Assembly: GCA_004335835.1 (NCBI GenBank)
Contig: RWJK01001509.1
Location: forward strand, 131,286 to 195,285
DNA: 64,000 bases
Reading direction: 5' to 3'
Source: Scenedesmus sp. ARA3
Taxonomy: Eukaryota > Chlorophyta > Chlorophyceae > Sphaeropleales > Scenedesmaceae
Shown here piece after piece: positions 18,148-64,000 of the stretch (its first letter is position 1; each line of letters starts with the position of its first letter). A program made the translations under genes and the position numbers. Under the pieces are notes generated by a model. That model was not told the DNA's origin. It searched no databases and saw nothing but the letters and a program-made list of their open reading frames with translations.

Positions 18148-20888
18148 TCACTTCTTTTTGCCGGCTGAAATCGGCGCCTTCTTCACACCCCCCTTGGCAG
18201 CCATGCCGCCTTTTGCTGCCCCGCCCTTGCCGCCCTTGCCCTTGGCTGCTGCTGCTGCTGCCGCCGCCTTGGCCTTGCCTGCGGAGGGCTTGACTGTGAC
18301 TGGCCCGAAGAAGGACTCCAGCCGGCCCTGGCTGGCCTTGCCCTTGGCCGCGTTGATCTTCTTGACCGTGTTGCGCACGCGGTCCTCGTTGAAGCTCTTC
18401 TCGCCTGCAGGCAGGGAGGCAGCAGGCGGCAGGGGAAGGCAGCAGCAGTACCAGTCAGCACCTCATCCCCCCCAGCCTAGCCAGCCCCCTTACGCACCCA
18501 CTCAAAACGCGGTGAGCCCCTCCTCATTGAGTGCGCTCCACTTGAGCGGCGGCAGCTGTCATCAGCCAATGCACCCCCACCACTGCCCAGGCAGCCTCCT
18601 GACTCACCCACTAGGAACGCGATGAGCCCCTCCGCGTCCGGTGCGCTCCACTTGAGCGGTGGCAGCTGTCATAGGCCAATGCACCCCCACCACTGCCAGC
18701 CAGCCCCCTGACTCACCCACTAGGAACGCAATCAGCCCCTCCTCGTCCGGCGCGCTCCACTTGAGCGGCGGCAGCTGCTCTGCGGGCGTCACCTCGGGCT
18801 CTGCGAAGAAGGCGGCCGCCTCCTTGTAGGGGTACGGCTCGGGCAGCGGGTACTTGGCGGGGTCCAGCGACTGGCGGCAGCAGCAGCAGCAGGCAGACAT
18901 GTCGGCGCATTTGCATGCTTACTGAGATCTGTTGAAAGCGCGGTGGTGGGTGCAAATGTCAGTATGCTTGCAAGTGCACGAGCATGGTGCGGCCGTGTTG
19001 CGGCATTTGGGGGGAAGTGCTCAGTGATTTTACACTGTCAGGNGGGGGGGGGGCGGGGCAGGCTGGAGCGCCTTGCATGCAGCGGTGTGCAGTGCGCATA
19101 TAGTAAGGCAGAGGACGCAGACGAGGCATATGCTTGCACAGGATTGTCTGCCAGGCAGCCGGCAGCACTGCCCTGCCCTTGTGCATCGGCCACACAACAC
19201 CCGCCAGGCTCCTGCAACCCAGCACGTGCACGGCCTGACACGGTCAGCTGCATGCTTGACGCCCTTACTGCCGCGCCGTGACGCTGCTCTGCTGCACTCA
19301 CCGCCTCCACGTTGCCGTGCTGCTTGATGAGTTGCTCCATCCCCCCTGCCGCCTCCACACTGCTTTCCATCAATGTGTGCTATAAACGTACAATAATATC
19401 TGCTCACCGCCACGGCCGCCTCCACGCTGCCGTGCTGCTTGATGAGGTTGAGCGCGCGCACCGCGCCGATGCCGCGGATGTTGGCGGCGTAATCGCAGCC
19501 GCACATGATGCACAGGTCGATGAACTGCGTCATGTTCAGGCCCAGCTCCTGGCGGCGGGAGGCAGACACAGCATCAGCAGCAGCAGCATCAGCAGCAGCA
19601 CGTCACGGTATATACGGCAAGGCTGCCAGCTGACAATATATAACAGCACGATATCAAGAGCACAAGGGACATCATGGGTGTCACAGAGTTGGCGCTTGAG
19701 TTGCATGCCGGCACGCAACACTGATGCAGCCGCCTTCCTCCTGCTGAGCGCCTCCTCCTGCTGCCTTCCCGCACAGCTTCCTGCAGCGCTGCACGCATCA
19801 TCCACCTCTGTATCATCCAGCGCATCTGCTTGCACTGCCCCTGTCCAGGCCTTGCCCCAGCACACAATCAAACAACACCAGCAGCTGCCATACTGTTACA
19901 CACCCAGCCCTCACCTCCAGCAGCACCGGCAGGCTGAACTCCTGTATGGCTGCACTCTGGCTGGCAGGTGCCATCAGGTGCCTGATCAGCACCGGGCAGC
20001 CAAAGGTGAGGCAGTCCATGTCCTCTGTTGCTGCCCCGTACACCACGCCCGACTTGGCCATGGCTGCGCACTGCGCCTCCGCCTCGCTTGGCGCGTCGAT
20101 CACGGGCACGCCCATCAGCCGCAGCAGCTTCTTGCACTCCTCGTTGTGCTCGCTGGTCACCTGTTGCAGGTCATGTGTGGCCAGGCAGCAGATGCAGATG
20201 CATAAACGCATGGTTGGTCTATTGCCCCTTGTTGCGTGTGTGTACAGCCGTTGTGCTCTGGTCACCTGTTGCATGTTGTGTGTGGCCTGCACACGCAGCT
20301 GCTGCGCTGGCGCCTCGTAGCACCTCCCAGCATCACGCCCTTACTGCTGCACTGCTGCTGCTGCTGCTGTGCCGCACCTTGATGGTGCGCTTGCCGTACT
20401 TCTCTATGGCCTGCTGCTGCTGACATCCTCAAGCATCTGAACACTGCAACTGCTGCTACTGCTACTGCTACCGCTACTGCTACTGCTGCTGCTGCTGCCG
20501 CGCCGCACCTTGATGGTGCGCTTGCCGTACTTCTCTATGGCCTCCTGGTCCCCCGCCTCCTTGGCCTTCTCCAGGCCCTCGGTGGCCTCCTCGCGCCGCT
20601 CACGCCGCTGCCGCAGCTGCGCCATCTTCAGCTCGGGAGGCTTGCCCTCAAACACGTACACAGGCTTGATGCCTGCGGCAGCGCCAAGGGGCAAGCGGAG
20701 CCAGAGGGTGAACTGCTTGTTGTTTGCAGGTTGGTGCAGGTGGCATGCAGATGGGGTGAGTGGGCTGTGCAAGCGAATGCTAACAGCGCTGCATGCAGCT
20801 GGTGAAGCTGCCTGCGTTGGTGTTGGCATGGTAGCGCTGCATTACTGCTGCCACTTACTTACCACTTACTACTGCATGCAAGCTACAG

Positions 20889-20920
<32 letters not shown>

Positions 20921-21276
20921 GCTGTTTGCCAAGTTGAAGTACTGTTGTGCTGCTGGGCATGCTGGCGCGGCGAAGAGTGCCACAAGCGCTGCAGTGCTGG
21001 CAAGATTCACTACGGCTCCTGAGCTGTGTAGCAGTCCTCACCTGCTTCCAGCATCCTTGCTGTGCGGTAGAACATGCCTTGCAGGTGGCTGGTGACCTCT
21101 CCTGCCTCATTGGACAGCAGCTGGTCTCCCTGCCTGCCCACTACGGCCAGGAACTGGTAGATGTGCATACTAGCGTCTACTGCAATCTTGCGCCCGAAGT
21201 AGTTGTTAAAAGCCTGCTCCTTGATGCACTTTGGGGCGTTGTCGCCCAGAAGTTTGGTTAGGCCGTGAATCCCCAT
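18148..21276 (-). CDS. FEN1: Flap endonuclease 1 (FEN1/RAD27), 6 exons
   Basis: Structure-specific 5' flap nuclease for Okazaki-fragment maturation and long-patch base excision repair in the nucleus. Exons on the minus strand: 21276-21042, 20672-20509, 20160-19915, 19548-19408, 18870-18717, 18404-18148. Phases close and give 398 aa (about 380 in animals). Visible features: the [11 protein letters not shown]-terminus, metal-site Asp34 (AVDAS), Glu159/Glu161 (SEAEA), Asp180/Asp182 (TEDMD), Asp234 (GCDY) with the following helix-hairpin-helix IRGIG, PIP box QGRLESFF at 339-346 for PCNA binding, and a Lys/Ala/Gly-rich basic tail. The position equal to human Asp86 reads Glu (VFEGKPP, residue 87). 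Introns 2, 4 and 5 carry copies of exon edges with splice sites. The gene is head to head with the BOR-like gene across 498 bases. Confidence 0.95.
18484..18776 (-). repeat. Triplicated 3' edge of FEN1 exon 5 with donor site
   Basis: The unit is about 109-110 bases: 60 exonic bases from CAGCTG to the donor, plus about 49 intronic bases. The copy nearest the exon body (to 18717) is the functional one. The second (around 18601-18660) still reads [13 protein letters not shown] with GTGAGT. The third (around 18491-18550) has a stop and GTGCGT. Confidence 0.92.
19297..19345 (-). repeat. Copy of FEN1 exon 4 3' edge in intron 4
   Basis: The minus strand reads [11 protein letters not shown] followed by GTGAGT, a degenerate copy of the real exon end [14 protein letters not shown] (donor at 19407). 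The offset is about 110 bases. Confidence 0.85.
20256..20292 (-). repeat. Copy of FEN1 exon 3 5' edge in intron 2
   Basis: Minus-strand ATGCAACAG|GTGACCAGAGCACAA matches the real acceptor CTGCAACAG|GTGACCAGCGAGCACAA ending at 20160. The copy is about 105 bases upstream, has lost three bases and is out of frame. Confidence 0.75.
20371..20412 (-). repeat. Exact 42-base copy of FEN1 exon 2 3' edge in intron 2
   Basis: Bases 20371-20412 are identical to 20502-20543, covering the last 34 exonic bases (encoding [12 protein letters not shown]) and the donor GTGCGGC. The offset is 131 bases. Both copies are preceded by CTG arrays. Confidence 0.95.
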
Positions 21277-21774
21277 GCTGCCTGCTTGCTGTTGCTGCTA
21301 GAATGTTAGTGTAAGCTTTGATCGATGGTTTGTTTGTGCAAAATGGTTGCAGCGTGGCTGCAAAAATGCAAGTGAACGCGGGCTAAATTCAAAAGTTCAG
21401 ACAGCAATATCGGCAGCGGCAACGACGCAGACGTAAACTCGACCTCTAAAAGCACACTCAGCTTTCAGCGATGCGCCTGTAGCTGTGCTTTCCCTTTGTA
21501 ACCTTGGCTCATTAGTCATTGTCATTTAAGTAGGGCTCTGGATCGAGAGCGAATGCGTGGCTGCGCACATGATAAAAACGATATGGTTCACCTGTATTGT
21601 CCATTGCCGATGGCACTTGCTGCAAAAGCAGGCAGCAAAGCCTGGCAGCACGCTTCTGTCGCTGATGTTGCTTGCTGATCAAGTCAGAGACAATTCACAG
21701 AAAACAACATATTTCACTGTCTCAGGCTGAGAGTTTAATGCCGCTTGGGCTGCTGCCACAGCACTGCCGCTGCC
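21277..21774. promoter_or_regulatory. Shared divergent promoter of FEN1 and the BOR-like gene
   Basis: 498 bases between two start codons pointing apart. No specific element can be assigned. It is AT-richer than the neighbouring introns, with no CTG arrays in the central part. Confidence 0.4.
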
Positions 21775-22495
21775 ATGCCCAGTATACTGGGCGGCAGGTG
21801 GTGCCCAGGCAGGGGCATTGCAGCAGATGTGGCCGGCCGCTTGCCTTGGTACAGGGATGACTGGGTGCAGGGCACCAACTGGGGCCTCAAGTGAGCGCGT
21901 GAAGCACATATACAGCACAGCAGCTGCAGCAGGCAAGTGGCGGCAGTGGCAGCAGCTGCGACTCACTGGCATTCTGCTGCTGCTGCTGCTGCTGTTGCTG
22001 CTGCCAGGGTGCTTGCTCCTGCCACCTACATCTTCTTTGCGTCTGCGCTGCCTGCTCTTGCCTTTGGGCAGCAGCTGGCAATGGACACAGGTGGGTCGCC
22101 AGTGAGGTGTTTCATGCAACTGTCTGGACAGCTGCAGCCGCACCACCACAGCTTCACGCTGCTCATCGGGGCCGCTGCCGGATTGAAAGTTTCCTTGAAA
22201 AGCAGCAATCGGCTGAAGCTTGTTTACAAGTTGTTTAGCCGCTGCCGTACCAGTGAGCATTGTGCCAATAGCATCAGCCAAAAACGTATGCTGGATTCTG
22301 CGTTGTGAAGCGGCGTCGAGGCAATCCCATCAGCAACAGCTGGCGCAACTCACAGCTCAACTTCATCTTGTATAGTACTTCACTGGTGGCTGCCGCTGCC
22401 AAACTGCTGTCGTGCTGCTGGCAACAGAGGGCACGCTGACAGTGGTGCACGTGCTGGTGTCGACAGCACTGGCAGGCCTGGTGCAGGTGGGGGCT

Positions 22496-22545
<50 letters not shown>

Positions 22546-24833: not shown

Positions 24834-24865
<32 letters not shown>

Positions 24866-28625: not shown

Positions 28626-31600
28626 ATGGACCACCGATTGCACCATCTCGGGCGCTTGCTTCAAGTACTGCTGATCGTCGGTCTAATTCAACAGTCTTGT
28701 GCAAGACATGTCCGTGTCCTGAACGCCAGAAGTGCCGCAGGTGAGGGCAACTGTGCTTGGCACTCCCCGACCTTCCAGTGGCCAGCACTTCCTACCCCGT
28801 GAGGTGTTGCATATCAGTTCGACTACTTTCCTGTACATGTTGGTTGAGATCGTTCGCCGCGACGTATGATGTGTTGGCAAGATGCGATAACTTGCCGGTT
28901 GCACGCTCTGCAGGCACGCTACGTAGGCTGCACTCTATCTCCGCAGCAGATACAACCTTAGAGGCTGAGACTGCAGCTGCAGGTGGGTGGCTGCGACGTA
29001 GCGCGGTGCAGCAGCACGCAGTGAGTCATGCCATCACACTATAGTACTGGCAGCCTCATCTCACAGGCTGGCCTGCGCCTATAAGTGTACATTTATCCAT
29101 TTGCCAGGTGCTCGTGCGGGAAGCAACACAACGAATGTCTGTTCTGCTACTGATACGATGCAGTGCCTTGCAATCAATGCTGTGTTGTGCTATACAGCAG
29201 GCTGGTGATACATTATGCTGATCAGTCAACTTGGGCTGTGCTGTTGCTGCAGGTGTGCAAGATAGCATCATAACAGACAGGTACATCGTAGCAATCGATA
29301 GCTCTGGCGATGCAAGCACAGCAGCAGCTGCACTTGTGGAAGAAGTGCGTGCAGCGCTGCGAACAGCAGGGGCAGGCGCCGCAGCAGCTGCAGCGGCAGC
29401 AGCAGCGGCACCAGATGCAGACATTGAGGTCTTGAAAGTCGGCCAGACAGCAGCAGCTGCAGACGTAGGGGCTGCAGCTGCAGCAGCTGGCGCCGCTGCC
29501 CCTGCTGCCACGCTCGTGCTGCGTGCCTCACCAGCCGCAATGCAGCACGTGCGAGCCTCTGCTCGTGTAAAAGCAGTCGTTCAGGACAGATATGTGCGCG
29601 CGCAGGCCCGAGGCCTCTCTCAGGCTAGCCCGGCCTGCGTGACCGCTAGCGCCATGCGCTCAGGCGTCAGCAGACCAGCAGCAGATGTGAAGGCGCCTTT
29701 GGTCAATGCATTCACCACGCTAGGGTGCAACGTCCAGAACGCCAAGTTTGTGTGGAAAGGCAGGTTCTGCCGCGGCAGCACCAGCAGCATCAACTTCACC
29801 GAAGTAGCAGCAGTAGACAGATTCACCAATGCAGCGCTGAGGACCAGCAAGGGAGCGCTGTGCAGGCTGGTGCGCGGGCCCAACCCCTCGGTGAATGCGC
29901 AGCGCTTTGGCAGCTGCAACGCAGCGCCTGCGGTGGCTGCCGGCCTGCCTGTGCGCGTGTGCGGTGCCACCGGCGGCAATGGCAATCTGGGCGGAGTCGG
30001 CACCACGCCTATGGGGCTGGTACTGCCCAGGGTGCCGCTGCAGCCAAATGAGCAGGTGGGCATGGCTGGCTTGCTGCAGTGGCGCAGCTTGCATCTGGCT
30101 TGCTCGACAGCTGTGCGCGTGCTGTTAGGCTGCAGCCCTGCACCACGCAGTGAGGTGCAGCGCCATGCAGGTGTGTGCTGCTGTGCCTTGAGCAGTGTGT
30201 CTTGAGGGAAGAGGTACATCCACAGGTCACTGCATCGCGCCTGAACATGCAGCTCACCTGCCTTGTTGTTGTGGTTCTGCGCTGCTGTCCGCGCTGTTGC
30301 GCAGGTGCCCAGCGGAGTGTCGCTGATTGAGGCTGCCAGGGGGGGCAGCGTGGGCAACATCAAGCTGGGCAAGACAGTCGTGGTGAGGCGCCGCTGCTGC
30401 TGCCAGGCCTGTGTTAAAACATTCTTTGAACAGCTACTTGATCTAGCAGCCACAGCAATACTACATGGATACATGCTTGGTCTGAGCAGTTTGGTGAAGC
30501 CTGTTGCAATAGAAGCTGAGTGTGTTGAATCCAAACACTGCTGCTGCTGCTGCGCTGCAGGTGGCTGTTGTGGACAGCGGCGTGGATGCCACGCACCCTG
30601 ACCTCAACTATGTGGGCGGCAAGGGCTTTGTCATCCCATCCACAGCAGTACCCGGGGACAGCGCAGACCCAGCCAGCGACCTCTACGGTGAGATAGGCCT
30701 GCACAGCAGCACACCAGCAGCACGCCTTGCCAGCAGCACGGCAGCCGTTTGGTCGCAGCAGTGCAAGGGTCAGTGGTCGTACAGCAGCTGCATCAATGCT
30801 GAAGTGCAAACTGCTGCGGTGTGTGACTGACGGCACTGTCCTTGGTGCTGCTGCTGCTGCTCTCCTGCAGGCCACGGCACGCATGTTGCCGGCATTGTGG
30901 GAGCGGAGAATGACAACAGCGGCCTGGTGGGGGTGGCTCCTGGTGTGGGCATCTACTCGCTCAAGATCCTCGACGCGCAGGGCGTGGGTGAGTGCTGCTG
31001 CGCACAGATACGCTTGTAGCTCACACTTCATCATTGAGGGCTTGATATCAAGCCAGGGCAAGCCCAATGCAGCAGCTGCACCTGTGTTTAGAGCATGCAG
31101 CTGACCCACTTCTGCACTTGCATGTCGATTGCAGCACTCCATCGGCAGCTGTGGCTCCTAGTGGATGCTGAGCAGCATCCTTGCACACATGTGCGCAACA
31201 CGTGCTTCAGTGCTGAGCCAAGGCGCATGTCACCCACACACCATGCACTGCTGTGGTGCGGTGTGCCCACAGGCTCACTGTCTGACTCGCATTTGCACTG
31301 CTGTGTGCCTTGCAGGCTCGCTGTCTGATGCCATGGACGCCGTCACCTGGGCCGCTGGAGCAGAGGGCCAGGCTGCTGGCATCCGAGTGATCAACCTGAG
31401 CCTGGCTGCAGCAGTGGACCCCGCGGCAGCAGGTGGGTGGTTGTTTTGTTTCTACTGGAGCCGCCATCAACAGGCCGTGCTGAACGCCTGCGTAAGCCAT
31501 GCACGATAACCAGCACGCGTGCATCTGGAGTGCTACAACAAGGCCTGCAGCCATTCCCCCAGCTGCCACTCATCGTCACTCTGATCTGAGCCTGTCTCTG

Positions 31601-36682: not shown

Positions 36683-36732
36683 NNNNNNNNNNNNNNNNNN
36701 NNNNNNNNNNNNNNNNNNNNNNNNNNNNNNNN
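36683..36732. other. Assembly gap (50 N)
   Basis: Run of 50 N, immediately followed by a (CAG)n array to 36789. The left flank (36615-36682) recurs at 42245-42315. Confidence 0.98.
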
Positions 36733-36789: not shown

Positions 36790-36790
<1 letters not shown>

Positions 36791-37929: not shown

Positions 37930-40900
37930 TTGCCTAGCACACACTTCCAGCTCTACTCAATGTTACCGCTTACGAAATCTTTACCTCGAGCAGCTGCTGC
38001 ATGCTGGCTTGAGGCTGCGCAGGGCTTGCAGAGAACAGCAGCAACACCAGCAACTTCTCAGCAATGGCGTTCCTTCGTGCAATCCACGAGGAGCCGTCAG
38101 GACCTGCGTGTTGCTATTGTAGGCTGCGGTGTCGGAGGACCCGCTCTGGCTCTGCTGTTAAAGCAAAAGCTTGGATGCACGCCAATGGTGTTTGAAGCAG
38201 CACACGCCATCAAAGAGGTGAGATGCCCCATTCAGCTGCAAGGATATATACCATCAGGCAGTGCAGCAATGGTGCTGCAATCCTGGAGGCGCTGTAGTGA
38301 CAAACTGGTAGAGCTGCTGACAGTGCGTATGCGTAAAGAGGGTTTCTAAAGTGCACTGCAGAACTTCTGAGGGGCTGTCAGGCCTGCTGTTGTTCTTGCC
38401 TGCTGTTGTGGCGTCACATGCTGTTCAGCACACCATGAAAAGACACGCAGACCAGGCTTGCGCAAGCCAACGCTCCTTTCCTGCTAGGAATGCTGTGGAC
38501 GACTCCTGCTGCTTGCAAGCAAGCTTGAAAACCCTTGAACTGCTGCCCTGCCCCCACCAGCACACAACAAGCGCAACGCCAAAGTTGTTGCAAGCACCAG
38601 CCTATCACCCGGCCCTCTTCATGCTTCTATGGCAGCATAACTACTCAACGCCCTCCAATCCGGCTGCTGCTGCACACTTCTGCTGCACTAAGCACTCCAT
38701 TGCAATGTGGCCAAACGCAGCCTGCAGGTTGGCGCAGGCATCAGCGGTTTGGCGCCAAGCGGCATGCGTGTACTCAACTCCCTGCATTACCACTGCACTG
38801 TTCACAAAGTTCCCGACCCGCAAGGTGGTGCATGCATCAGCTTGGCACCAACTGCCGCACGCTCCCTGCACGGTCACTGCAACCTCACTGCACTGTGCAC
38901 TGTTGTCAAACTGCAGGGTGGCGCAGGCATCAGCTTGGCACCAACTGCCGCACACTCCCTGCACTGTCACTGCAACCCACTGCACTGTGCACTGTTTCCC
39001 ACCCGCAGGTTGGCGCAGGCATCAGCTTAGCGCCAAACGGCATGCGAGTGCTGGACTCTCTGGGCCTTGCTCAGAAAGTGGCAGCAGATGTGGGCGAGCC
39101 AATCCACACAATGCATGCCTCACGGCCAGATGAGCGCACCATCGTCGAGTTTCCGACTATGGCTATGGAGGTGCGGCAGGAAAGGGGCCTGGCAGTGTGG
39201 CAGTGTCAGTGCAACACACTGCAGTCATCGAAAGGGGCGCGGCACTGTGGCAGTGTCAACACAACACCCTGCAATCATTGAAAGGGGCCTGGTAGTGTGG
39301 CAGTGTCGATGCAACACCCTGCAATCAGTGAAAGGGGCCTGGCAGTGGCAGTGGCGTTGCAAGGGTTGCAGACTAGGGGCTGGGAGATAAGGAGGCTTCT
39401 TGTCCCTTTTAAGGGTGGTGGAATGGTGGAGTGACACGCGCAGCAACCATTGATGCCATGTGTGAGGCATGTGGCTCTAGGAGCCAGGTGCATGACAACC
39501 TTGCAACAGCCTGCATGACAAGCAAAGAAGCTGTGGCAGCTGCCTCGATACACCTGCACCCCAGTTCAAACACCTGTTGTGTGGTTGACATGTAGCAGCT
39601 CTCCAGTGGAGAGGTTCCTATGTTTGCCTGCTGCCTGCCTGCACTGCATGACCGTCACCGCTGTCGGTTGCTACTGCTGCTGCTGCTGTTGCTGCCAGCG
39701 CTTTGGCCTGCCTATGATTGGCGTGCGGCGCTTCCGGCTGCTCAATGTGTTGCTGGAGGCAATGCAGGCAGCCGACATTCCGCTGCAGCTGGGCAAGCGC
39801 CTGCATGAGATACACCAGCCACCAGGCAGCAGCAGCAGCGACAACAGCAGCACTGGCCCGGCAACGCTGGTGTTTGAAGACGGCAGCAGCAGTGAGGCAG
39901 ATTTGGTGGTGGGGTGTGATGGGCTGCGCTCACGCACATGCGCTATCGTCAAAGGAGGTGCGGAGCCGCCGCCAAAGTGAGTATGCTTGCGCTGCTATAC
40001 ATCACATACTATGCACGCCATGCTGTAACTTCTGCCCAGCCAGGAGGTGCTTGCACCATCACGCACCCAAAGTTCCGCCTCACCTGACAAATGTGTCTGT
40101 AATGACATTGTTTGTTGACAGTCCAAATACCAGCGGCAGCAGCTGATGCTGTTGTGTGCAGCCGTCCAGCAAGATGAATATATTTAGCAAGCCTTGCAAG
40201 CAGCATGCTGCTGTCGAGTGCCTGGTCTTACTAGGAGCCAGTAGCTGCATACAGTTTGTTGCTGCTGTCCATACATGCCTGTCAATGCATGTAGCTAGCG
40301 ACCAAAGCACACAACAACTCAGTTCTGACCTGCAACCTGCATTTGAAATGCGCACCATGTGCAAATTTCAGGTACACCGGCGAGGAGATAGTTTTTGCAG
40401 TCACCATGGATCGAAACCATGACCTCGTGCCACCAAACACCTGCCGCATGGTGTACGGCCCTGGCCACAAGCACTTTGGCACGTATGGCTTAGGCAGCGA
40501 CTGCAGCTGGTTCACGTCGACGGCGCGCAGCAGCAGCAGCGACAGCTGGGGCCCTGTTGCTGATGCTGCTGCCATTGAAGCAGTGAAAAGCGAGCTGGCT
40601 GACAAGTTCAAGGGGTGGGGTTTGGTACAGCGCATGCTGGAGCGCGAAGTGGCAGTCATGATTCGCGTGAGTGCCCATGCTACGAATGCAGTGATGACAC
40701 AAAAATGAAACGATAACCGGTGTAGATACACTGTGTGCTTCCTGTTGCTGGTTCCTGGGCATGACAGAATAGTGATGAGCAGTGTGCTGCCGGGTGTTGG
40801 TCAGGAACTAGTGCTGACAGCGGCCCAGTGTAATGCATGTCTCCGTTGAGGAAACAGCAGCTGCCTCTGCAGCTGTCCCCAGCACAACGTCACCTTGTGT

Positions 40901-41985
40901 ACACGCGCTGTGCTGTGGAGCAACCCCGGCAGTTTGCCACCATGCATCTGGGTGCAGCCGCAGCGGCAACTCATTGCCAGCTTTTGTGCTGCCAGCAACA
41001 GTGTTGCTCTGTCAGCTCAGCTGCGCTGTTTTCAGTGCTGCCCTCAGTGGTGTGTGAACCTCTCATTACGCCTGATGGGGGTTCGCACTCCTGGTCAAGC
41101 AACGTCAACCCCCTACATCCTGCTTGAGGCATAGGGGGTTAACATAACGCTGTGGATACTGACCTGCCGCTTGCAGGTGGGAGTTTTCGATCGCGACCCA
41201 ACACCTACATGGAGCAGTGGGGTGATCACGCTGCTGGGTGATGCAGCCAGCCCCATCCCGCCAAACCTCGGACAGGGCGGCAACAAAGCATTGGAGGACG
41301 CCGGAGTGCTGGCAGCCTGTCTGGCACGGTGGGTGTTGGCAGCAGTGGTTCACGCAAACCTGGAGCAAGAAAACGGCACGAACGAGGCCATCTATGGTCT
41401 TCTTGAACACAAGACATACTTGTGTGCAGGAGCAAACTATGTTCCATGGCCAGAACAGCTCCGGCATGGCTGTTGGTGTGGCGAAGCAAGCACAGGGTTC
41501 TCCATGCTACCTGGTTGCGCAACCCTAGTCAGCTCAGTTCACCAACACCTGGATTGCTGAATTGTAGCACCAGTTGGCGCCGCACCAGTTGCTGATTATA
41601 GATAGCAAGCTTGCTGCAGGCTGTGTTATTGTAGTGGCATGTATACATGGCACATGCCAATGCTGCCGCAACAGCAATAACCACACCATTGCCAGCTGTG
41701 CCCATGTAACCGCTGTATGATGGTGCTCCACTGTCCTTCTGCTGTGCCTGCAGTCACCAGAGCAACATCCATGCAGCCCTGAAGCAGTACGAATCGCTGC
41801 GCAGCAAGCGCGCAGCAGCGCTGCTGCGGCACTCCCGCAGCGCCAGCAGTGTGGCAAACCTGCAGAACCCGCTGGCTGCTGCAGCCAGGGACGTGCTGCT
41901 GCGTGGCATTGTGGCTACGAAGGGCACCATTCCTTCTGACTGGATGTGGCAGTACGACTGCGAGACGGCAGTGGCTCAGGGATGA
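37930..41985 (+). CDS. FAD-dependent monooxygenase (PF01494-like), 6 exons
   Basis: Class A flavoprotein hydroxylase related to salicylate hydroxylase and zeaxanthin epoxidase-type enzymes; substrate unknown. Exons: 37930-38217, 39009-39170, 39699-39976, 40372-40666, 41177-41328, 41754-41985; phases close, 468 aa. The dinucleotide fold VAIVGCGVGGPALALLL (GxGxxG at 65-70) follows a basic, Ala/Ser-rich N-terminus that could be an organelle transit peptide. The inner Met at 37960 is an alternative start. Other family blocks: GISLAPNGMRVLDSLGL, DLVVGCDGLRSR (the DG motif), and ITLLGDAASPIPPNLGQGG with ALEDA (the GD motif at 362-363). Intron 1 carries three extra copies of the exon 2 start, and the last exon is partly duplicated downstream. 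Confidence 0.92.
38720..39065 (+). repeat. Four tandem copies of the monooxygenase exon 2 5' edge
   Basis: Copies start at about 38727, 38822, 38917 and 39009 (the real one), spaced about 92-95 bases. The first keeps an acceptor CTGCAG and reads VGAGISGLAPSGMRVLNSL with one extra Gly codon. The middle two share decayed sequence around GCATCAGCTTGGCACC. Confidence 0.92.
39176..39355 (+). repeat. Minisatellite, unit about 50 bases, 3-4 copies
   Basis: GAAAGGGGCCTGGCAGTG recurs at about 39179, 39229, 39279 and 39329 with diverged units between. It begins only about 10 bases after the exon 2 donor of the monooxygenase gene. Confidence 0.9.
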
Positions 41986-42002
41986 GCGCCAGAGGCCAGT
42001 GA

Positions 42003-42231
42003 TTGAAACCGGGAATGACAGACGAGTCTCTCCATTCCATGTTCATGGCAGATGTGAGCATGCTGCTGCAGCGCTCGCGCGCAACTTGCAGTGGCACTGC
42101 TGTGACAAACCTGCAGAACCCGCTGGCTGCTGCAGCCAGGGACGTGCTGCTGCGTTGCATCGTGGCTGTGAAGGGCACCATTCCATCGGACTGGATGTGG
42201 CAGTGTGACTGCGAGACGGCAGTGGCTTAGG
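42003..42231 (+). pseudogene. Duplicated 3' part of the monooxygenase last exon
   Basis: Tandem copy with a 251-base offset from the last exon. It reads VTNLQNPLAAAARDVLLR and then IPSDWMWQ..CETAVA with a stop, closely matching the end of the monooxygenase. The upstream part of the exon is not conserved and there is no gene 5' to it. It could be a remnant of tandem duplication, part of the 3' UTR, or two haplotypes joined by the assembler. Confidence 0.8.
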
Positions 42232-42244
42232 GATGAGAAACAGG

Positions 42245-49400: not shown

Positions 49401-52400
49401 ATGCTTGTGCTGTCAAATGCAACCCCTGCTGTGTGCACAGCTGCCTCCTCTCACCTTCTGGTACTGCCAGCTGGTGCTGCACAGCTCCAGCTCCTGCTCC
49501 ACCCACTCACGCCGCGCCTTCTCAGTGCGCAGCAGCGGCGCGGCTGCGTTGGGCTGCAGCTCAAGGTCAGCCGGTGCACTGCCTGCAAGGCGAAGGCATA
49601 CACAACAGTGAAACAGGTTGTTAGGGCCGCCGGGTGTGCAAGGCGCCTGCTGCAGCTCAAGGTCAGCTGGCGCGGTGCCTGCAGGGCCAAGCAAGCACAG
49701 CACAGGCGTGGCAGACAGGTGCTAAGGGTGGTGGTGTGCACACTGGCGAGGCGGCTGTTGCTCACAGCGCACTGCGAGAGCAACAGCTAAAAGCTGCAGA
49801 GCGAGGCCAGGTGATGGCAAGGACTGCAATTAAGGGGTTAGGGTAACCCCAGCCAGCCTGGAGATCGCAGAATCGGCGTCAGCACATGCTGTGCATGCAG
49901 CCACGCTACCATAGGTGCGCAAACACACAGCGACGGGCCCTCCACATCAACGCAGCCCTGCGGTGGCATGCTCACCGCGCTCGTCTGTGCCCGCGCCCTG
50001 CCCGGGCCGCTTGTCCCTGCGCACACGCGCCTGCAGCTCCAGCAGGTCCCGCAGCTTGCGGCGCGCCGCCTCAGCCTCCTCTGTCTTGCGCTTCAGCACA
50101 GCCTGCACATTAAGTGGGGCAACAGATGTGAGCATGCTGCATGTGATTTTTGTGTGATGCAGTCTGGGTATGCGGTGAGTTGCATACGTGGATGTAACGC
50201 CGATTACGGCACCTGCTGGTGCATGTGTGCATGTGCTGCAAGTGCTTAGATGTGCATGTGTGCAGCATGGTGTCCAGCTGCTAAACTATTGGGCACCAGA
50301 AGCCGTCCATTTCAGCTGCAACGCAGGCCACAGGGACCACTGACGCACTCTCGCACCTGCTGCTTGCTGTGCATCGCCTGGTGCTGCTGCAGCGCTGCGC
50401 TCTGGCGCTGCGCGTTGCGGCGCAGCTGCAGCACCTCTCGCTCCCGCATCAGCCGCCATTCCCTGAACTCCTTCTCCTTGGCTTCCATGCGGCGCTGCAC
50501 CGCTGCGCGCGCTGACTTCATGCGGCTGATGTCAGCCGTCAGCTGCTGGCACACTGCCTGCACACGACCCTGCAGGTGGAGGGTGAGGACATGACACATG
50601 GTCAGGTGAGAAAGCTGATCAGTACAAGGCAAAGCTACAAGAACGGCTACAACTCAGGTAACAGAGCACCATATCACACACTAGGGGCGCTGCAGTGCCG
50701 TGCAGGAACTGGCAGTTGCAAGTAAGCTGCAGGGTAACCCTGCCTCAGGCCTATGCCAAATTGGGGACTGCCAGGGTGAGAGCAACACAATGCATGTTGT
50801 TTCAGCGCGTTCCTCACCAGCTGTGCTGCGCTGCGCTTGGCTGCCTTCTCACGGTCTGCCAGCTCTTTGAGGCGCCGCTCCACTGATGTCAGCTTGTCCC
50901 GGTACTGCTGCTGCAGCCGCTTGCGCTCCTCAGCACCAGCCACCTCCACAGCCTGCAGCTTCTGCACTCGTCGAAAGCAGCAGCAGCAGCAGCAGGAAAG
51001 CAGGGGTGTGCATGGTCAGTGCAACGCTGCCAGAGCTTTGTGATTGCGCGTGCATTGCTGCCTCGAAGCGCCAAAGCACCACTGCATTATCCCATGTGGG
51101 GCACAACTTGAATCTGTAATGCCAGCTTTCCAGAGGATCACATGCTCCATAAACCAGCAGTTTCAACCGCTGCATATCTGGCTACCTCTCACTCAGAAAG
51201 CCGGCCATATGCAGGCAGATAAACATACACGGTTCTACTGACCTGCAGCAGTGCTGTCTTTTCCTTGGCCAGCGTGTCCCTCTCCTTCTGCAGCTCCATC
51301 ATGTACTTGCTCTTTGCTCCCTCCATGTCAGCAGCACTCTGCAGTGCCAGCAGCCGCTTCTGCTTGGCCTCCATCTGGCGAGCCAGCGCTGCGAGCTTCA
51401 TGTTCATCGCCTCGCGCGCCATCATGTGAGCAGCAGACTGCGCCAGCACCTCAGCATCTGACTCCACCTCCTGCTCGAGTACGTGGGCCAGCAGCAGCAG
51501 CAGCAGGATGAAGAATAGCACGTTGAAGAAGGGCTACGGCGATACGCCGTCTGCTACTATCAGCCATGGTTATATGCTTGCACAACTCCAAGCAGCATGC
51601 ATAAGCTGCTGAACTTCTGTGTGCCGGCAGCGGAGGTGTGCTGATACAGCAACCTGCCTGGCCAGAAAGATGCTTGTGCTGCCATCCTTGCCATAGCCAG
51701 CTGCAAGAGGTCAGGAAAAAAAGCACAGCACCACACTCACCACCAGGGGCTCGTCCAGCTCATCTGCTGCCTGCCTAGCAGGAGTCATGGGCGAGCAAGC
51801 ATCTTCATCTTCCTCCTCCAAGCTAACCCCCTCCAAGCTTATGCCCAGGCCAGCTGCTGCATGTGGATGCGGCGGGCTGCCGTGGCGGCTGTTGCCTCTG
51901 TTGCCGTGCGCACCAGCACCAGCAGCAGCAGCGCCGCCGCCGCCTGCGTTGCTGCTGCCGCGCGCGCGTGCGCCGCGCACGGATGCTCTGCCGAGGCCCA
52001 TGCCGCCGCTGCTCATGCCGCGCACCAGCACACTGGATGTCATACGCTGCAGGCTGCGCACTTGCCGCAGCTCGGACTCGAGCTCTGACACGCGCGCACG
52101 CAGGCCTGCAACCACACCCAGATCACCCATGATGCCACCAGCTGGCTGCTGCTGCTGCTCCGCTGCTGTTGGATCCAATGCAGCATCTGCCTGGCTGCCT
52201 CCAATGCTACTGGCGGGCCGACCAGCTGCTGCTGCTGCGTCCTGCTGCAATGCTGCCTTGACTGCGTCGTCGCTGGATGCAGCCAAGGCTAGCTGCAGGG
52301 CTTCCAGGCGCAGCAGGGCTTGATCACGCTCTGTTTCAGCTGACAGCATGCCACTTCGCAGCACCTGAACCTCTGCATGGGCAGTGTCCTGCAGCAAGGC

Positions 52401-55400: not shown

Positions 55401-55419
55401 TGCTGTCTTCCGCTGTCAT
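43484..55419 (-). CDS. Kinesin-4 family motor (FRA1/KIF4-type), 22 exons, about 2249 aa
   Basis: Plus-end microtubule motor; plant FRA1 members act in cortical transport and wall deposition, animal KIF4 in mitosis. Exons (minus): 55419-55237, 55108-54964, 54724-54561, 54302-54112, 53903-53687, 53471-53317, 53094-52695, 52388-51741, 51470-51243, 50961-50818, 50569-50357, 50102-49976, 49582-49455, 49184-48918, 48692-48537, 48275-46124, 45880-45612, 45374-45283, 45076-44790, 44541-44165, 43883-43811, 43617-43484. All phases close. The N-terminal motor has VHIRPL, P-loop GQTGSGKT (110-117), SSRSH, DLAGSE (305-310) and [18 protein letters not shown], the kinesin-4 neck. An acidic insert of about 50 residues sits between switch I and switch II. 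Coiled coils follow (exons 7-15), then a 2.15 kb exon and tail rich in Ser, Gly, Ala and poly-Gln with no named domain. The exact acceptors of exons 9 and 18 are slightly uncertain. Confidence 0.93.
49655..49692 (-). repeat. Copy of kinesin exon 13 5' edge in intron 12
   Basis: The minus strand reads acceptor-like CTGCAG followed by [10 protein letters not shown], a copy of the real [10 protein letters not shown] exon start at 49582. The offset is about 94 bases. Confidence 0.85.
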
Positions 55420-56387: not shown

Positions 56388-59300
56388 TCATTCCATCATC
56401 TGCTGCGTGTACGCCATCTTGCGCTTCCAGTCGTCCAGCGTCAGCAGGCTGCGCCCTGCCATGTCCTGCTGCCGCTTCTCTACGCTTTGCAGCCACCGCA
56501 GGCCCAGCAGGCGCTTAGGCAGCAGCGCGCTAGCAACCTGGCCCGGCGGTGGCAGCCTGTCCAGGTCTATCTTCAGGTCAAGCACCTGCAACAGGCCAAC
56601 AGGCGGCAACGGCGGCGATACTTGGTGTTATGCGCTTACAACCGCATTTGCCCTTGAACCGCCTGCACGCCTGTGTCCTCATCCTTGTGCCACACCTACC
56701 TACTTGTTGCACTACTGACCTCATCAATGTGTCAGTGCAATTCCTGCATGCCGCCTTTCAGCAGGTCAAATTTATGCTGTCAAGCCGCTGGTTCCCGGCA
56801 CACACCAGCCATGCTGCTGTGCAGCATACGCAATAACACACGAGCTCTGCTGCTGTGCAGCAGTCACACATTTGCCATGCCTATCACTGTCATGATACAA
56901 CAGCGCACCTTGATGAGCTCCGAGGGCGCCATGGTCTTCTGCTTGCCCTGCAGCAGCGTCACATCCACGCTGCCCTGCCGCTGCATGCCGCCCTCTGCTG
57001 CTGCTGCCTTGGCTGCCTCCTGCTTCTCCTTGCTGGTCTGCCAGTACACCTTGGACTGCGTGTGGCGCCTGCTGAACACGTCGTTGCCCTCCTTGCCTTC
57101 CTTCTTGATGCCAGAGCTGGGGCCCACGCCTTGGAAGATCTGCGGGCACAGGCAAGAAGAGGATGCAGGAAGAGCAATGCAAGTCAAACAGCTGTGCAAG
57201 CCTGCTGTCTTCATCCATGACCTGCTTGCTCCCTTCTTTCTGCCAGACCTTGGGCCCACGCTTTTGACGACTCTGATTGAGTGAATGTGATTTGCCATGT
57301 GGGCTGACTGACACAAACATGACTCGTTGCGCACCTTGAGCACGTTCTTGTCCCTGTTGCGCATGTTGATGACCGCAAGCGCCATCTCAGTCGTGAGCTT
57401 GGCGCCGCCAGCAGCAGCGGCAGCAGCAGCAGCGCCCATCCCGCTGCCTTCTTTTTCCGCGCGAGCCGCCTGGATTGCTGCGTCCGCCTGCTGCGTGCGC
57501 TGCCGCTCCTGCTGCTCCAAGCGCTCAAGCTCATCCTGCAGCCTGCAGCACAGCATGCAGAGCAGGCAGGTGAGCACATCCCATTAAATCGGCATACACA
57601 GCAGACGCCAGCAGCACTGCAAGCGTAAACTCGGCGAGGTGCTGAGGATCGGCGTCAACAGCTCAGGACACCAAAGTGCTGCGTGCCTGTCTATTGCATT
57701 ATCCACCTGGTGGTCCAGGAACGCAGCCTTGGACCTTTTAGCCGCTGCTGTCCGCACTTTTGCATGAAGGCCGTTATGGCACCACACTGCCCTCCACCCA
57801 TATCTCAAGCCCACGCCAATACCACCCTAATCAACAGCAGTCAACACCGGTCAACCCACCGCAGGACCACGTCTTCCGGCTTGCCCTCTTGCCGAGCGAT
57901 GTTCAGCTCGTGCGTGAGCCGCGCCCTCCGCTCAGCCACAGTGCCCGTGCCCTTGCCTGCTGCGCGCTTGCGGTCCAGCAGCTGCTTCACCAGCACCGCA
58001 TTGTACTTGAAGCTGCAGACATGCAAAAGCCAGGTCAGGTCAGGTCATGTCAGGTTGCGTCGGGAGCAGCTTGTTGTGCAGGGCCAGGTGCAGCACTGCT
58101 GCTGCCAGCCCAGTAGCCATGCAGCAGAGTTTGAGAGGTTGCTGCTCACTGACCAAGCACAGCTCACTGCAAAGGGCTAGTTGCAGCACTGTTGCTGCCA
58201 GTGCTGTGCCTGTGCAGCCGTATGCGGCAGGTTGCTGATCACTGACCCAGCATCAGCATTTGGGACTTGTAGGCCACGCAGAGCAAAACAAAATTCATCT
58301 GCACGTAGATTGACTATCCATCCCAAACGCTGTTGTACATCTCTGTGAACCTTTAGGTGCATGACAGAGTAATACTTGCTGATGAGCTTAACTCGTGAGT
58401 GCTGCGGTCACTCACTTGCGCGCGTGCTGCAGCCGCTCCTGCGCCTGCTGCACGTCGCCTTTGGTGATGAACTTGCTGTGCCCGCGCTGCGCCTTGGCCA
58501 GCGCCTTGTCATACTCGGCCTGCGTGACTGCGCTGTTGCTGACCTGGCGTATGTTGCAAACCACACAGCACACACGCAAGGAGCGGTTCAGCGCATGCCC
58601 TAGTATGATGCAGTCAGTGATACTCGGCCTGCGCCACCGCGCTGTTGCTGACCCGGGCAAAATGCAGCCAAGCGGCATGCAGAGTTAACTTATGATCAGC
58701 AGTTCAGCCAAGTTATATGATACAGTCGGTCACACTCCGCCTGTGTCACCTCGCTGTTGCTGACCTGGCACACAAGCTGACAGTACAAAGGCATGTCATT
58801 TCTCACAGCAGCAAGCCCTGTGAAGCCTCACCATGCTCATCTGGTGCCTGAACACGCTGCCGCCTGACAGGTCGTCCATGTGCAGCCACTTGCGCGTGCG
58901 CGACGCCTTAGACCCAGCAGGGAACCTGCGGCCGCACAGCCACAGCACCGCCAGCAGCAGCAGCAGGCAATAGCTAGTAAGATACAGCCATTCCAACTGC
59001 ATGCCGCTGCTAGAAGCAGACGCAGCGCACAGCAGTTGACACAGGCTGCGCATACTCAATCCAAAGCTGCACAGCATGCCAAGCACGCAGGCTGTTGAAC
59101 TTCAACACACAGCAGCGCAGCACACGCGCAGCGCCGTCCACACAACGATTTTTGTTCTTTGCGTCAATTTGCAGATATACAGCAGGTTGGCAGCGGTTGT
59201 CGCTCCCTCACGTGTAACTGTTGCGCGTGACGATGTCGCTGATGCGCGCCAGCAGGTAGGACGGCTGCCCCGTGCGCGCCTGCTCCGCGCTGTTCACGAT

Positions 59301-61947
59301 GCGCAGCAGGCAGCCCTTCACATCTTCCTCGAAGAACGGCTCGCCGTGCCAGGCTTCCAAGTCGCTGCGGCGCAGCGTGATGGAGAGCACCTCGTCCAGC
59401 GTCGCGCGCTCCTCGCTCTCCTGCAAGCATACAGCAAGCATGAAACAAGGTTTGGCAGTTGCGAGCGGCTGTGCTTGGGTGTGTGTCTCGTGCGCGGCCG
59501 ATTGGAAGAAGATATGCACCTCTTCCAGCGACGTGCGCTCCTCGCGCTCCTGCAAGGGGTGCGGATGGTGCAAGCAGTGTGAACGATGCGTGCAGAAGAT
59601 GTGACGCTGTGCAGCTCCTCGCTGTCTGCAAGGGGTGCGGCAGGTTTGCAACAGCCGTGTCAGTTGTGAGCCACATGCACCGTCCACGTCCTCTTCAGAC
59701 AGCCCCGTCCTGCCAGGCTTCCTGCATCGCACGCTCCTCACTCTCCTGCAAGGGGTCCAGCCAAGGTGTGCAAGCACTGAGCAGGAAGAAGTTCAACAGT
59801 ACAAGCCGGCCGGCGTCAGTCGTCATTGACGCTGCTCAGGACCTGCAAGACGGCGCGCGCTTCGGATTCTTGCAAGTGGTGCGGATTTTTTTTGCCAGCG
59901 ATGCATCGTGCCGCATGGTGTGTTGCGTGTCTGTTGCATTGTCATGTGCGTGCCAGCTTTCCCCACCACTGCTGTAACCTGCACCCCTGTTGCTTTACAA
60001 TAAACATCAGCTGGCACCTCAAGTTCCTGCCCCAGTGGCGCACCTCATAGGAGCCTGCCCCCTCATCATACACCTCTGTGCGTGTGCCCAGCTGCCCGGC
60101 AGCCCTGTCTGCTGCTGCTGCTGCCTCCTCCTCTTCCTCCTCCTCCTCTGCTTCTAGCTCCTGCAGCTCATCACTGTCCTCGGCTTCTAAGGAGGCATCT
60201 GCGAGCATCAACACACAACAACAGACACAACAAAAAACCGTTGGCGTTACTAACTGCAGCAAGACAGCGGTCAGCAGATGACCCTAAAAAAAAAAGGGCC
60301 ACGCTAGCAGCTGCGCTAGCTCGTTATATCAAGAGAACACATGCAGCAGCAATGTGAGTGCACACACACATTGCTGCTCATGCAGCGTGGTTGCTTGAGT
60401 GCTGCCTTGACTATCTGCTGTGGCTACCTGTCTCCGAGGCCATCTTGTGCTTGCAGGAGCTTGCCTAGAACTTTTCGCAGTCGCTGTTCAGCGCTGCGCC
60501 CGGCTGCTTCTTGGCATCACAATCCTGAACGTGCACTGTAGCTTCTGACCTGCTGCAGCTGCTGCCACCCCCAGCTAGTCCACTGCCCCCAGAAGCCGCC
60601 TGACGTACATAATTCACTGCTATCACTGCTGCTGCATGCTGCGGATCTGCCAACCTGCAGCACAATCGACGATGCTGCCCCTTGCTTACTGCCCCTGGCT
60701 GCACTGCACATGCAGCAGCGCCCGCTACCCCCCACCCACCAGACTCCTCTGCCTCTTCTTCCTCCTCCTGCTCCTCATCTTCCTCATCCTGCTGCTGCCG
60801 CTTCTTCCGGCTGCGCTCTGCTTTCTCCTCCTCCTGCTGCTTCTTCTTCTGCCGCTCCTCGCGCTGCGCATGCGCTGCTGCGATGCGGCCGATGGCAGAG
60901 TCGGTGCCTGTCTGTGTGCGGGGGCGGCGCGATGAGGCGCGCACCTCCACCTGCAGATGCAGTGAGATGCGGCAATCATGCAGTTAAGCGGCACAAAGGT
61001 GCAGGTAAGCAGGCAGGGTGCAGCGCTTGAATGCAGGTGATGCAGAAAGGGCGAGAGAAAGAGGTGCAGAAGCGGTGAGTGCAGATGTGCGGTTGCTGAC
61101 AGCGTGGATGCTAAAATGCGCTGCAAGAGCTGCAGTTGCTGAGGATAGAGAGGCACCGATCAGCTGCGTTCTCACCCACACAGAAGCTGGCGGCATGGCA
61201 TGCAGCTGTGAGGTTCGAGCAGGTGCAACTGCTGTTCACGTCCTTTTGGCAACCGTGCTTGAATGATGCAGCGTCCATTCCAAGTCCACAGAACAAGCTA
61301 CACATGACAGGCAGCTGCCCAGCACTGCTAGACTGTACTCATGGCAGCATAGAAGCTGGTGATGCTGCCGTTATTGCTGCTACATGAGCGTCTGGCTGCT
61401 ACTGCTGCTGTGGCTGTTTACAGAACACCTGCTGCGACCTGTCTGATATACCACAGCTGTTGCACGCAGCAGTGATACTGTGCATGCGCAGCAGTGCATC
61501 AAAAGCTGTTTAACTTTCAGCTCCCTATCAGTTTGGCACAACAAGTTGCCCGTGTCACCCCACGAAACAGGGTATGGCCTTGCTACTGCTGCTGCTGTTG
61601 CTGCTGCTCACCTGCTCTGCCTCCTTGCGGACTTGGGTGAGCACTTGCTGGCGTTCTCGCTGTCTCTGTAGGATTTCTTCCCGCTCAAACAGGTACATCT
61701 CACGCTCCAGCTCATTCATGCCCTCCAGCTTGGCCCGCTCCTCAGCATCCATCCCGTCATCATCTGATTCCGAGTCATCGCTGTCCGCTGCTGCTGCCCT
61801 GCGCTTAGGTGCAGGTTTTTGCTGCCGTGCTGGGCGTTCCTCCTCATCCTCAGAGTCATCTGCCTTCCGGTTGCGCTTTTTGCCTGCTGCTTTGCTGCCT
61901 CTGCCCGTCACCAGCAGCAGCTCCTCGTCGTCAAAGTCCTCATCCAT
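56388..61947 (-). CDS. RTF1: RTF1 / VIP5, Paf1-complex subunit with Plus3 domain, 10 exons
   Basis: Nuclear transcription-elongation factor; in the Paf1 complex it promotes histone H2B ubiquitination and links Spt5 to chromatin. Exons (minus): 61947-61612, 60950-60740, 60198-60044, 59420-59212, 58925-58832, 58543-58416, 58012-57860, 57542-57335, 57139-56909, 56585-56388; phases close, 640 aa. The acidic N-terminus (MDEDFDDEELLLVTG) is followed by the RTF1-typical MNELEREMYLFEREE. Next come a basic/acidic coiled stretch and the Plus3 domain from about residue 235: SITLRRSDLEAWHGEPFFEE, VKGCLLRI, ISDIVTR, RTRKWLHMDD, VFRHQM. Then helices VSNSAVTQAEYDKALAKAQ and YNAVLVKQLLDRKR, and the C-terminal TLDDWKRKM. 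The human protein ends in a comparable LEDYKKRR motif. Several introns carry copies of exon edges. Confidence 0.93.
57225..57270 (-). repeat. Copy of RTF1 exon 9 5' region in intron 8
   Basis: Bases 57228-57265 resemble 57099-57139 (shared TGCCAGA and GGGCCCACGC blocks), at an offset of about 128 bases. Strongly decayed. Confidence 0.6.
58080..58260. repeat. Intronic tandem duplication, about 93 bases
   Basis: TTGCAGCACTGTTGCTGCCAG-like and GGTTGCTGATCACTGACC-like blocks each occur twice with the same offset, inside RTF1 intron 6. Confidence 0.7.
58510..58775 (-). repeat. Three copies of RTF1 exon 6 5' edge
   Basis: The real edge is at 58543. Copies lie at about 58620-58655 and 58728-58763, offsets 108-109 bases. 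Each keeps GTCAGCAACAGCG followed by coding-like sequence. The copy nearest the exon has an acceptor changed to CCGG. Confidence 0.9.
59395..59885 (-). repeat. Real plus four copies of RTF1 exon 4 5' edge
   Basis: The real acceptor TTGCAG|GAGAGCGAGGAGCG is at 59420. Similar CTTGCAG|GAGCGCGAGGAGCG edges occur near 59552, 59627, 59748 and 59868. Some include longer matches into the exon (for example LEEVHIF against LDEVLSI; CCTGCCAGGCTTCC shared). Confidence 0.85.
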
Positions 61948-62428
61948 TGCTCAATGATACTTATACCACTTTATAGCCGATGCAGGAACGATCTGAGCTA
62001 CACAGGCAGCTGTGGCAAGCAGAAGCTGTGTTGGCACCAGAATGGTGCTGTCTGCTGCACCAGTGTGCACCACTTATTCCTTGTACACAAACACTTCTTG
62101 AACTTGCAAGACCATGACCACTGGACTCCTTCAAAGGCAGTATGCACTTTACACACTGCTAGGCCACTCAGTGCTGTGTCCTGGGCCGCTGTTCACTGTG
62201 TTACTGACATTCATTGTAGCAGAAACCCTTGTCACATCAACCCACACCCACGCAGCATACTGACGACAGCCTCGGAACTGTATGTCCTGCTGCAACACCA
62301 TTACTCAAAAACTGCCCGTGTCCAACCTGCAGCACTCGGCTCTGCTGCAAGCACGCACTACATCTCCCAACCACCAGTGAACTGACTAAATACAATTGGT
62401 TGGTGATTCTGTCATAACTGACGTGTAC
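61948..62428. other. Intergenic between RTF1 5' end and recA-like 3' end
   Basis: Short spacer of about 480 bases with the RTF1 promoter. No element recognised. Confidence 0.5.
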
Positions 62429-63348
62429 TTATGCGCTCTTGACATCATCTTCATCATCACTCTCAGGGCCAGCAGCAGCAGGGCCATCAGCATCCAGCGC
62501 TGCTTCTAGCGCAGCAGGGTCCTGCAAGGCCTTGCGCACCAGCCCGGTCAGCTCTGACCGCAGCGCCTCATCTCCTGCAAGCCGTGCACTGGCCGCATCC
62601 CTGCCATGGCCCAACTTCTGCTCCCTGCAGCAGCAGCAGCAGCAGCAGCAGAGGCAGCACAGCAGCAGAAGTGACAATTGTCGCTGCCAAGAAGAGTTTG
62701 AACTTCGCTGTTTGCATGCACCTGTAGTCATCAGCATCTTAGCAATCGTGTCGTTGACCAAGCAAGCGCAATGACGCCAGGCTGCCTCCAGTGATAAAAT
62801 GACAGTGCTAGTAGTACTGTGAGCCCTTGGCAGTCACGCCGTGATCGGCGGCCGATGACAAGGACCCTGTCCTGGTTGGCAACAACGGGCAAATCGGGCA
62901 ATTGTTTTGTCGAGTAAGCCAGGCCAATAACCCCAAGCTGCTCACTTGTAGTAGTAGTGCAAGCCCTTGGCAGTCAACATGGACAAGGTCAAACATAGAC
63001 ACATAGGACGTTCATGTCCTCAAGTTGGCCAGGCCGCTCACTTGTAGTAGTAGTGCGAGCCTTTGGCAGTCACAATGCCCAGCAGCTCGCAGGCCTCCAG
63101 CAGCGTGGCGTTCATGTCAATGCCCTTGTTGAACTGGATGATGAACTCCGCTGACCTGCAGCCACGCAGATTGGCACAGGGTCTACATCAGTTGGGCAAC
63201 CCCAGCGCCAAAATCCTGCTGCTCCTGCTCTAGAAACCGTTGCAAGCCATCTTGTGCGCAGCTGTAGGGCGGTGCCACCTTGTTCTCGACCACCTAGGCC
63301 TGTACATTCACCCCAAAAGTGGGCAGAAAAAGGCCAGGCAGCACAATT

Positions 63349-63384
<36 letters not shown>

Positions 63385-63785
63385 TTATGACAGACCGGGT
63401 CACCTGTAGGGCGGTGCCACCTTGTTCTTGACCACCTTGGCCTTCCAACCCACGCCAATTGTGGCCAGCAAAGGCCAGGCAGGTAGCCAGCAAGACGCAT
63501 TCGGCATATGCAACAGTTACTCTGAGGTAACCCCCAGTAGCAGCCAAAAAGCGAACCTGTACGGCGGCGCCACTTGTTCTTGACCACCTTGGCGGTCACG
63601 CGCACCCCTGTCTCCACCTTGTCAGGGCCCATCACCTTCCCCCAACCACACACACATGCACTCAACAGCCAGCTAGCCAACAGGGCTCCTGCCAGGTGTG
63701 AAGCAGCTGGACCCCAAGCCAAACCCAAGACAGCCCAGACCTGTCCCACGTAAAGGAATGTCCCGTTTGCAATCCCAGCCCCACA

Positions 63786-63822
<37 letters not shown>

Positions 63823-63937
63823 AGCCAGACAGCCAGCCAGCCAGCGCACCTGTAAGGCGGCACCACCTTGTTCTTGACCACCTTGGCCTGTACATTCAAC
63901 CCGAAAGTTGCCAGCAAAAGGCCAGGCAGCATTTTTG

Positions 63938-63969
<32 letters not shown>

Positions 63970-64000
63970 TTATGACAGACCGGGTCACCTGTAGGGCGGT
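62429..64000 (-). CDS. RecA-like recombinase (organelle type), 3' part; gene runs off the right edge
   Basis: Bacterial-type RecA, in algae and plants usually nuclear-encoded and targeted to plastid or mitochondrion for DNA recombination and repair. Certain exons (minus): 63155-63042 reads SAEFIIQFNKGIDMNATLL and ends GIVTAKGSHYYYK; 62624-62429 reads EQKLGHGRDAASARL, then LTGLVRKALQD and an acidic tail before the stop. This matches the RecA C-terminal region (AEF...GI...; GxGR). Upstream, one long piece near 63640-63560 reads VMGPDKVETGVRVTAKVVKNK but is frameshifted just after. Several 38-base copies reading AKVVKNKVAPPYR follow. The true joint may use the internal AAG|GTGGTC of the long piece as donor and the copy at 63403-63430 as the next exon, but this is uncertain. 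The core ATPase domain lies outside the window. Confidence 0.88.
62806..63075 (-). repeat. Three copies of a recA-like exon 3' edge with donor
   Basis: The real end (VTAKGSHYYYK, donor at 63041) is followed in the intron by a copy at about 62943-62980 (LTAKGLHYYYK with GTGAGC) and a decayed one at about 62806-62848 (VTAKGSQYY then stop, donor lost). Confidence 0.92.
63262..64000 (-). repeat. Five copies of a 38-base recA-like mini-exon (AKVVKNKVAPPYR)
   Basis: Copies near 63262-63301 (stop, donor lost), 63408-63446 (intact), 63556-63597 (one base missing, but longest upstream coding), 63849-63887 (intact, with its own TGTACAG acceptor and GTGCGC donor, V for A), and one starting at 63986 that runs off the edge. 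Spacers share AAGGCCAGGCAG-type sequence and CTG arrays. Confidence 0.9.

Follow-up and report, generated by a model that had tools for sequence, protein, structure and literature searches.

In a 64,000-nucleotide stretch of the genome of the green alga Scenedesmus sp. ARA3 (contig RWJK01001509.1; hereafter the window), the terminal bases of exons, together with their splice sites, are repeated within the adjoining introns of several genes. These copies probably arose by recurrent tandem duplication of short segments, mostly 91–142 bases long. On this reading the duplications are biased towards splice junctions, which they span, and represent a variant of internal gene duplication as already known. 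The window is intron-rich, has a G+C content of 58% and forms part of an 87.3-Mb assembly of 1567 contigs. An ungapped self-comparison covering offsets of 12–1499 bases, from which low-complexity matches were excluded, gave 41 local matches outside simple repeats. When these were compared by hand with the gene models, we counted 11 exon edges that are repeated, splice site included, within the intron next to them, mostly at a distance of 92–142 bases. The first-pass annotation had described about a dozen such junctions, at offsets of roughly 90–135 bases, with donor-side and acceptor-side edges both affected and with one to several copies per edge, and the window bears it out on each of these points. 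Among the six genes that it named, FEN1 (recognised through a match to solved structures) and the FAD-binding monooxygenase, kinesin, RTF1 (Plus-3 domain) and RecA (C-terminal domain) genes (recognised by Pfam) do carry copied edges. The sixth, a subtilase likewise recognised by Pfam, has no copied junction at a score of at least 34; a looser look at scores of at least 24 gave one 16-base match (31270–31285). Scanning the window against Rfam and for tRNAs gave no hits.

The sample beyond the window consisted of 21 stretches from the same genome (L002–L022), amounting to 258 kb with the window included. Two N-rich stretches (L018 and L020) were left out before counting, leaving 238 kb, and L001 lies within the window. 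A gene finder self-trained on the fetched loci predicted 28 genes with 328 exons and 300 introns from the DNA sequence alone; the predicted donor consensus was CAG/GTGAG (the slash marks the splice site). The acceptor consensus over all predicted introns was a CTG run (CTGCTG..CTGCAG/G), not a plain pyrimidine tract. We found 370 local matches in the window and L002–L022, compared with 0–2 in each of five local shuffles. Copies were present at 57 of the 600 predicted junctions and in 47 of the 300 introns (edges taken with a few intron bases; window and loci together). Introns with copies were longer (median 396 bases as against 264, p 0.003), in agreement with the earlier suggestion that the process lengthens introns.

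The comparison of exon ends with their flanking introns that the first-pass annotation had proposed was made in this sample with 50-mers in gapped alignments, introns outside 120–1500 bases being excluded (273 of 300 kept). Exon-terminal 50-mers were found again in the adjoining intron at 19/229 donors and 22/239 acceptors, whereas control introns gave none (shuffled 0/229, swapped 0/195). Exon-interior 50-mers were copied in the intron in 6/156 and 4/170 cases, and intron 50-mers next to the edges in 8/237 and 5/237. Taken together, edge 50-mers (41/468) exceeded both near-edge intron 50-mers (13/474, p 7e-5) and exon-interior 50-mers (10/326, p 0.001). Match coverage was likewise highest at exon edges, being 0.19 at 10 bases into the exon and 0.05 at 30 bases into the intron for donors, with corresponding values of 0.17 and 0.08 for acceptors.

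The copies are direct and local. Edge 50-mers had direct copies at 19/240 donors and 22/247 acceptors (41/487 together), and inverted copies at 0/240 and 0/247; the intron on the opposite side of the exon held a copy in 1/221 and 2/219 cases. Under an alternative cluster rule, 55 of 57 junction clusters had a smallest offset of at least 91 bases. In 24 of 36 events the intronic portion of the unit was related above the 95% point of the null, and in 17 it reached the full expected tandem length. Direct, adjacent copies of a unit that holds both an exon edge and part of the intron are what an internal tandem duplication spanning a splice junction leaves behind. Furthermore, 36 predicted edges had two or more copies at the level of matches, arranged head to tail in several units, as in minisatellites or other variable-number tandem repeats (VNTRs). 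In 46 of 85 copy–copy pairs the intronic copies stay alike past the exon breakpoint, and we therefore regard them as arrays with common breakpoints. The null for this comparison came from these same pairs and is heavy-tailed (99% point 36.0), hence only its 95% point (3.8) was applied. One intron of L016 holds its donor edge in four copies and its acceptor edge in three.

FEN1, on the minus strand, provides the clearest set of copied edges in the window. The donor edge at exon end 20509 (ATCAAG/GTGCGG; 20482–20547) recurs in the intron at 20351–20416, at a distance of 131 bases, and the acceptor edge of the next exon at 20160 (CAACAG/GTGACC; 20153–20182) recurs in the same intron at 20258–20287, 105 bases away, so that a single intron holds copies of both its own donor edge and its own acceptor edge. 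Part of the donor-edge copy (20378–20410) was wrongly called an exon by the gene finder. A further donor edge at 19408 (VEAAVA/GTGAGC; 19416–19446) has its copy at 19301–19331, a distance of 115 bases. The donor edge at 18717 lies in an array (18475–18777) of 2.8 units of 110 bases, comprising the exon copy and two intronic copies at distances of 109 and 219 bases; the farthest copy contains a stop codon and missense changes.

A unit of this size would often fall on a splice junction by chance, and the excess at junctions was measured with this in mind. Of the 86 clusters that the matches formed, 24 lie outside predicted genes, 50 are at junctions, 8 within introns only and 4 within exons only. 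Judged by position, two or more of the intron-only clusters (window 18475 and L016 2746) belong to edge arrays, and the exon-only offsets (105, 63, 102 and 162 bases) are all multiples of three, the gene finder being blind to others. With a unit of about 115 bases, geometry alone sends a share of 0.45 of tolerated duplications to junctions, because such a unit often crosses a border when introns are short. We also ran a forward simulation of uniform tolerated duplications with decay and the same detector. Its rates of substitution and of indels were assumed, and its introns were the 219 in which no match had been detected. In four settings it gave a junction share of 0.37–0.43, as against the 50 of 58 observed (binomial p ~1e-11). 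A bias towards junctions therefore remains, and the enrichment over purely intronic duplicates on which the first-pass annotation had staked its proposal is present in the sampled genome.

Once made, the copies in the window decay as dead sequence. Mismatches there fall 14/12/19 by codon position, a third-position share of 0.42 compared with 0.48 in a dead-copy model. In 62 alignments from all loci, the exon parts (2778 sites) contain 23 indels. Copies had been expected to supply decoy splice sites; 27 of 36 clean copies keep GT or AG, with site scores matching those of true sites, and nine have lost it. Loci outside the window behave differently when pooled (45/43/162, a third-position share above the 0.48 of the dead-copy simulation). 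In L011, L016, L017 and L021, intronic edge copies differ from the exon mostly at third codon positions, and for the copies at L021 3045 and L016 3272 the differences are almost all synonymous. The third-position excess outside the window could mean that the assembly contains diverged haplotypes, that diverged alleles have exchanged sequence, or that the copies were once in use.

Several observations count against a junction-centred process that leaves dead copies. Match coverage is 0.095 in unannotated DNA, 0.075 in introns and 0.089 in exons, and of the 24 clusters outside predicted genes, 14 of the 22 tested look noncoding. Random intron-interior 50-mers, searched on both sides, were copied in 12/237 cases, which is not significantly below the edges (p ~0.1). 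In 19 of 36 events the homology on the intron side ends before the full tandem unit. Over all loci the mismatches (59/55/181) have a third-position share of 0.614 (locus bootstrap 0.524–0.688), compared with 0.480 in the dead-copy simulation. In addition, the exon models are self-made and RNA-free, and at least one decoy was counted as an exon; the gene finder also merged FEN1 with genes downstream of it and overlooked the first exons of the monooxygenase. Such duplications are frequent beyond predicted genes too, so junctions are not the only places where the process acts. The earlier view of a process acting at junctions thus stands for the skew inside predicted genes and fails for the similar duplications beyond them: the duplication process is general, yet skewed to junctions inside genes. 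An unannotated region with a low coding score, L019 6767–7371, contains a long array of 130-base units (475-base match, score 358).

According to the mechanism that we favour, short tandem duplication of a unit crossing a splice junction would occur repeatedly in the genome, perhaps when replication or repair slips or switches template across some 100 bases. The exon-joined copy would go on working, while the extra copy and its splice site would be absorbed into the intron, lengthening it and usually decaying as dead sequence. Some units would be amplified again, giving rise to arrays. The copies are likely to be real in the living genome and to be without function, and the duplication step itself, not retention of the copies, would seem to favour junctions. 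We lean towards junctions being hit more often, rather than copies surviving better there, because the splice site is lost in 9 of 36 copies, indels have accumulated in the copies and they show no enrichment of AGGT.

A stronger proposal, possible but clearly less probable than recurrent duplication with a bias, is that a mutational process targeted to splice junctions copies 90–140 bases into the intron, such that introns expand from their borders and accumulate decoys, and that copies with synonymous differences only may exchange with exon edges. Several candidate causes did not hold up. Breakpoints in CTG/CAG arrays, suggested by the first-pass annotation, looked convincing singly in L016 and FEN1, but the CTG/CAG measure at copy boundaries (0.078) equals the intron background (0.078). 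AGGT occurs in both copies in 2 of 32 events, where 4.2 would be expected, which argues against both the AG/GT route to intron gain that had been invoked and same-protein splicing through AGGT inside the copies. Paralogues as templates were also rejected: the L016 exons had none, and the matches of L011 were weak. The matches of L011 3400–4013 elsewhere are many and weak, and nearly all lie in one 130-base part encoding glutamine-rich sequence.

It is unlikely, in our judgement, that random tandem duplication combined with purifying selection and detection bias accounts for the pattern. Duplications that break exons would then be lost, and junction copies would be recognisable for longer, one copy being held constant. 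This account fits the large share of tolerated units that geometry sends to junctions, the events outside genes and the dead-sequence evolution of the window copies. In the simulation it falls short of the observed junction share, although that result depends on the assumed rates.

Slightly less credible still is an assembly artefact, in which exon edges of diverged haplotypes or strains, with exons conserved and introns not, were joined side by side. This reading was prompted by 36 events with mismatches of 30/26/115 by codon position, and it draws on the third-position excess outside the window (162/250 mismatches), on the L021 and L016 copies that differ almost only synonymously, on offsets which we take to be near short-read length, and on the presence of N gaps in the assembly. 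It is weakened by four observations: none of 235 copy pairs contains N, no second version of FEN1, kinesin or the L016 exons was found in the assembly, non-exonic breakpoints are common to the intronic copies in the 46 of 85 pairs described above, and the codon pattern in the window is not allele-like. The indels in exon parts and the stop codon in the farthest FEN1 copy point the same way. False duplications have gaps around them, according to PMC9516828. The present copies resemble the false heterotype duplications described there in being local duplicated exon pieces with partly allele-like differences outside the window; they differ in having no gaps between copies, shared breakpoints, and frameshifts and stops.

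Retention of the copies for a function, as alternative exon edges, backup splice sites or tandem exons, is improbable: the third-position excess outside the window and the true-site scores of the copies that keep GT or AG would agree with it, but the copies are truncated exons, unlike mutually exclusive or alternative tandem exons, a quarter have lost the splice site, their exon parts carry indels, AGGT is not enriched and those in the window look dead.

The remaining edges in the window show the same arrangement. On the plus strand, the monooxygenase has an acceptor-edge array (38722–39036) with three copies upstream of the exon start near 39008. A 50-base tandem repeat of 3.4 copies (39180–39347) adjoins a monooxygenase exon. 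The coding end of this gene including the stop codon (41850–41986) is repeated 251 bases downstream (42101–42237; 137 bases, score 107), a duplication at a coding border without a splice site. The other edges are on the minus strand. The kinesin acceptor edge at 49582 (49553–49595) is copied at 49649–49691, a distance of 96 bases. In RTF1, the acceptor edge at 57139 (57085–57142), identified in the junction test, has a copy at 57218–57275 (about 132 bases), the edge at 58543 lies in an acceptor-edge array (58508–58769) with copies at 109 and 221 bases, and the edge at 59420 lies in another (59387–59756) with copies at 129 and 325 bases. RecA has a donor-edge array at 62809–63073 (edge 63042, copies at 96 and 236 bases) and a second, at 63256–63971, in which the AKVVKNKVAPPYR exon end is present in four copies at a distance of 142 bases and others. 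A one-base gap puts one of these copies (63563–63632) out of frame, and because of it, which of the four is the used exon is ambiguous.

Internal gene duplication across an exon–intron border is said, in works that cite it, to have been described by Gao and Lynch in 2009. In potato RdRp, as reported in PMC4974935, a tandem duplication across an intron–exon boundary carried splice signals along and made a new intron. The likeness lies in the crossing of the boundary with its splice signals; the potato case is one event with a new intron, whereas here an existing intron is lengthened, at tens of junctions and at both donor and acceptor edges. AG/GY-type duplications are reported for Drosophila in PMC2891723. 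Our copies share with AGGT tandem-duplication intron gain (the Rogers model; PMC2891723 and PMC4974935) the head-to-tail exon copies beside splice sites, but the exon sequence that was copied is not enriched in AGGT, the copies lie inside an existing longer intron, and most copy-bearing introns exceed the offset in length. Minisatellites or VNTRs also have head-to-tail units that amplify and diverge, as in FEN1, L016 and L015; here the units start within coding exons and are concentrated at splice junctions. Introners (see PMC9860276) likewise change intron content across a genome, but the sequence here is local to each gene, and window 39180–39400 (221 bases) and L016 3540–4804 match their own locus only. 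Titles and abstract openings of open papers yielded no description of genome-wide copying of exon edges into introns.

Intron growth and the origin of new splice sites are an old open question, argued mostly from single cases. A genome with about one in six introns bearing a recognisable junction duplication would permit bulk measurement of the mutation step, of the decay of decoys and of the effect on splicing. A mutational origin of the junction bias, if true, would link local duplication with DNA that is transcribed and spliced.

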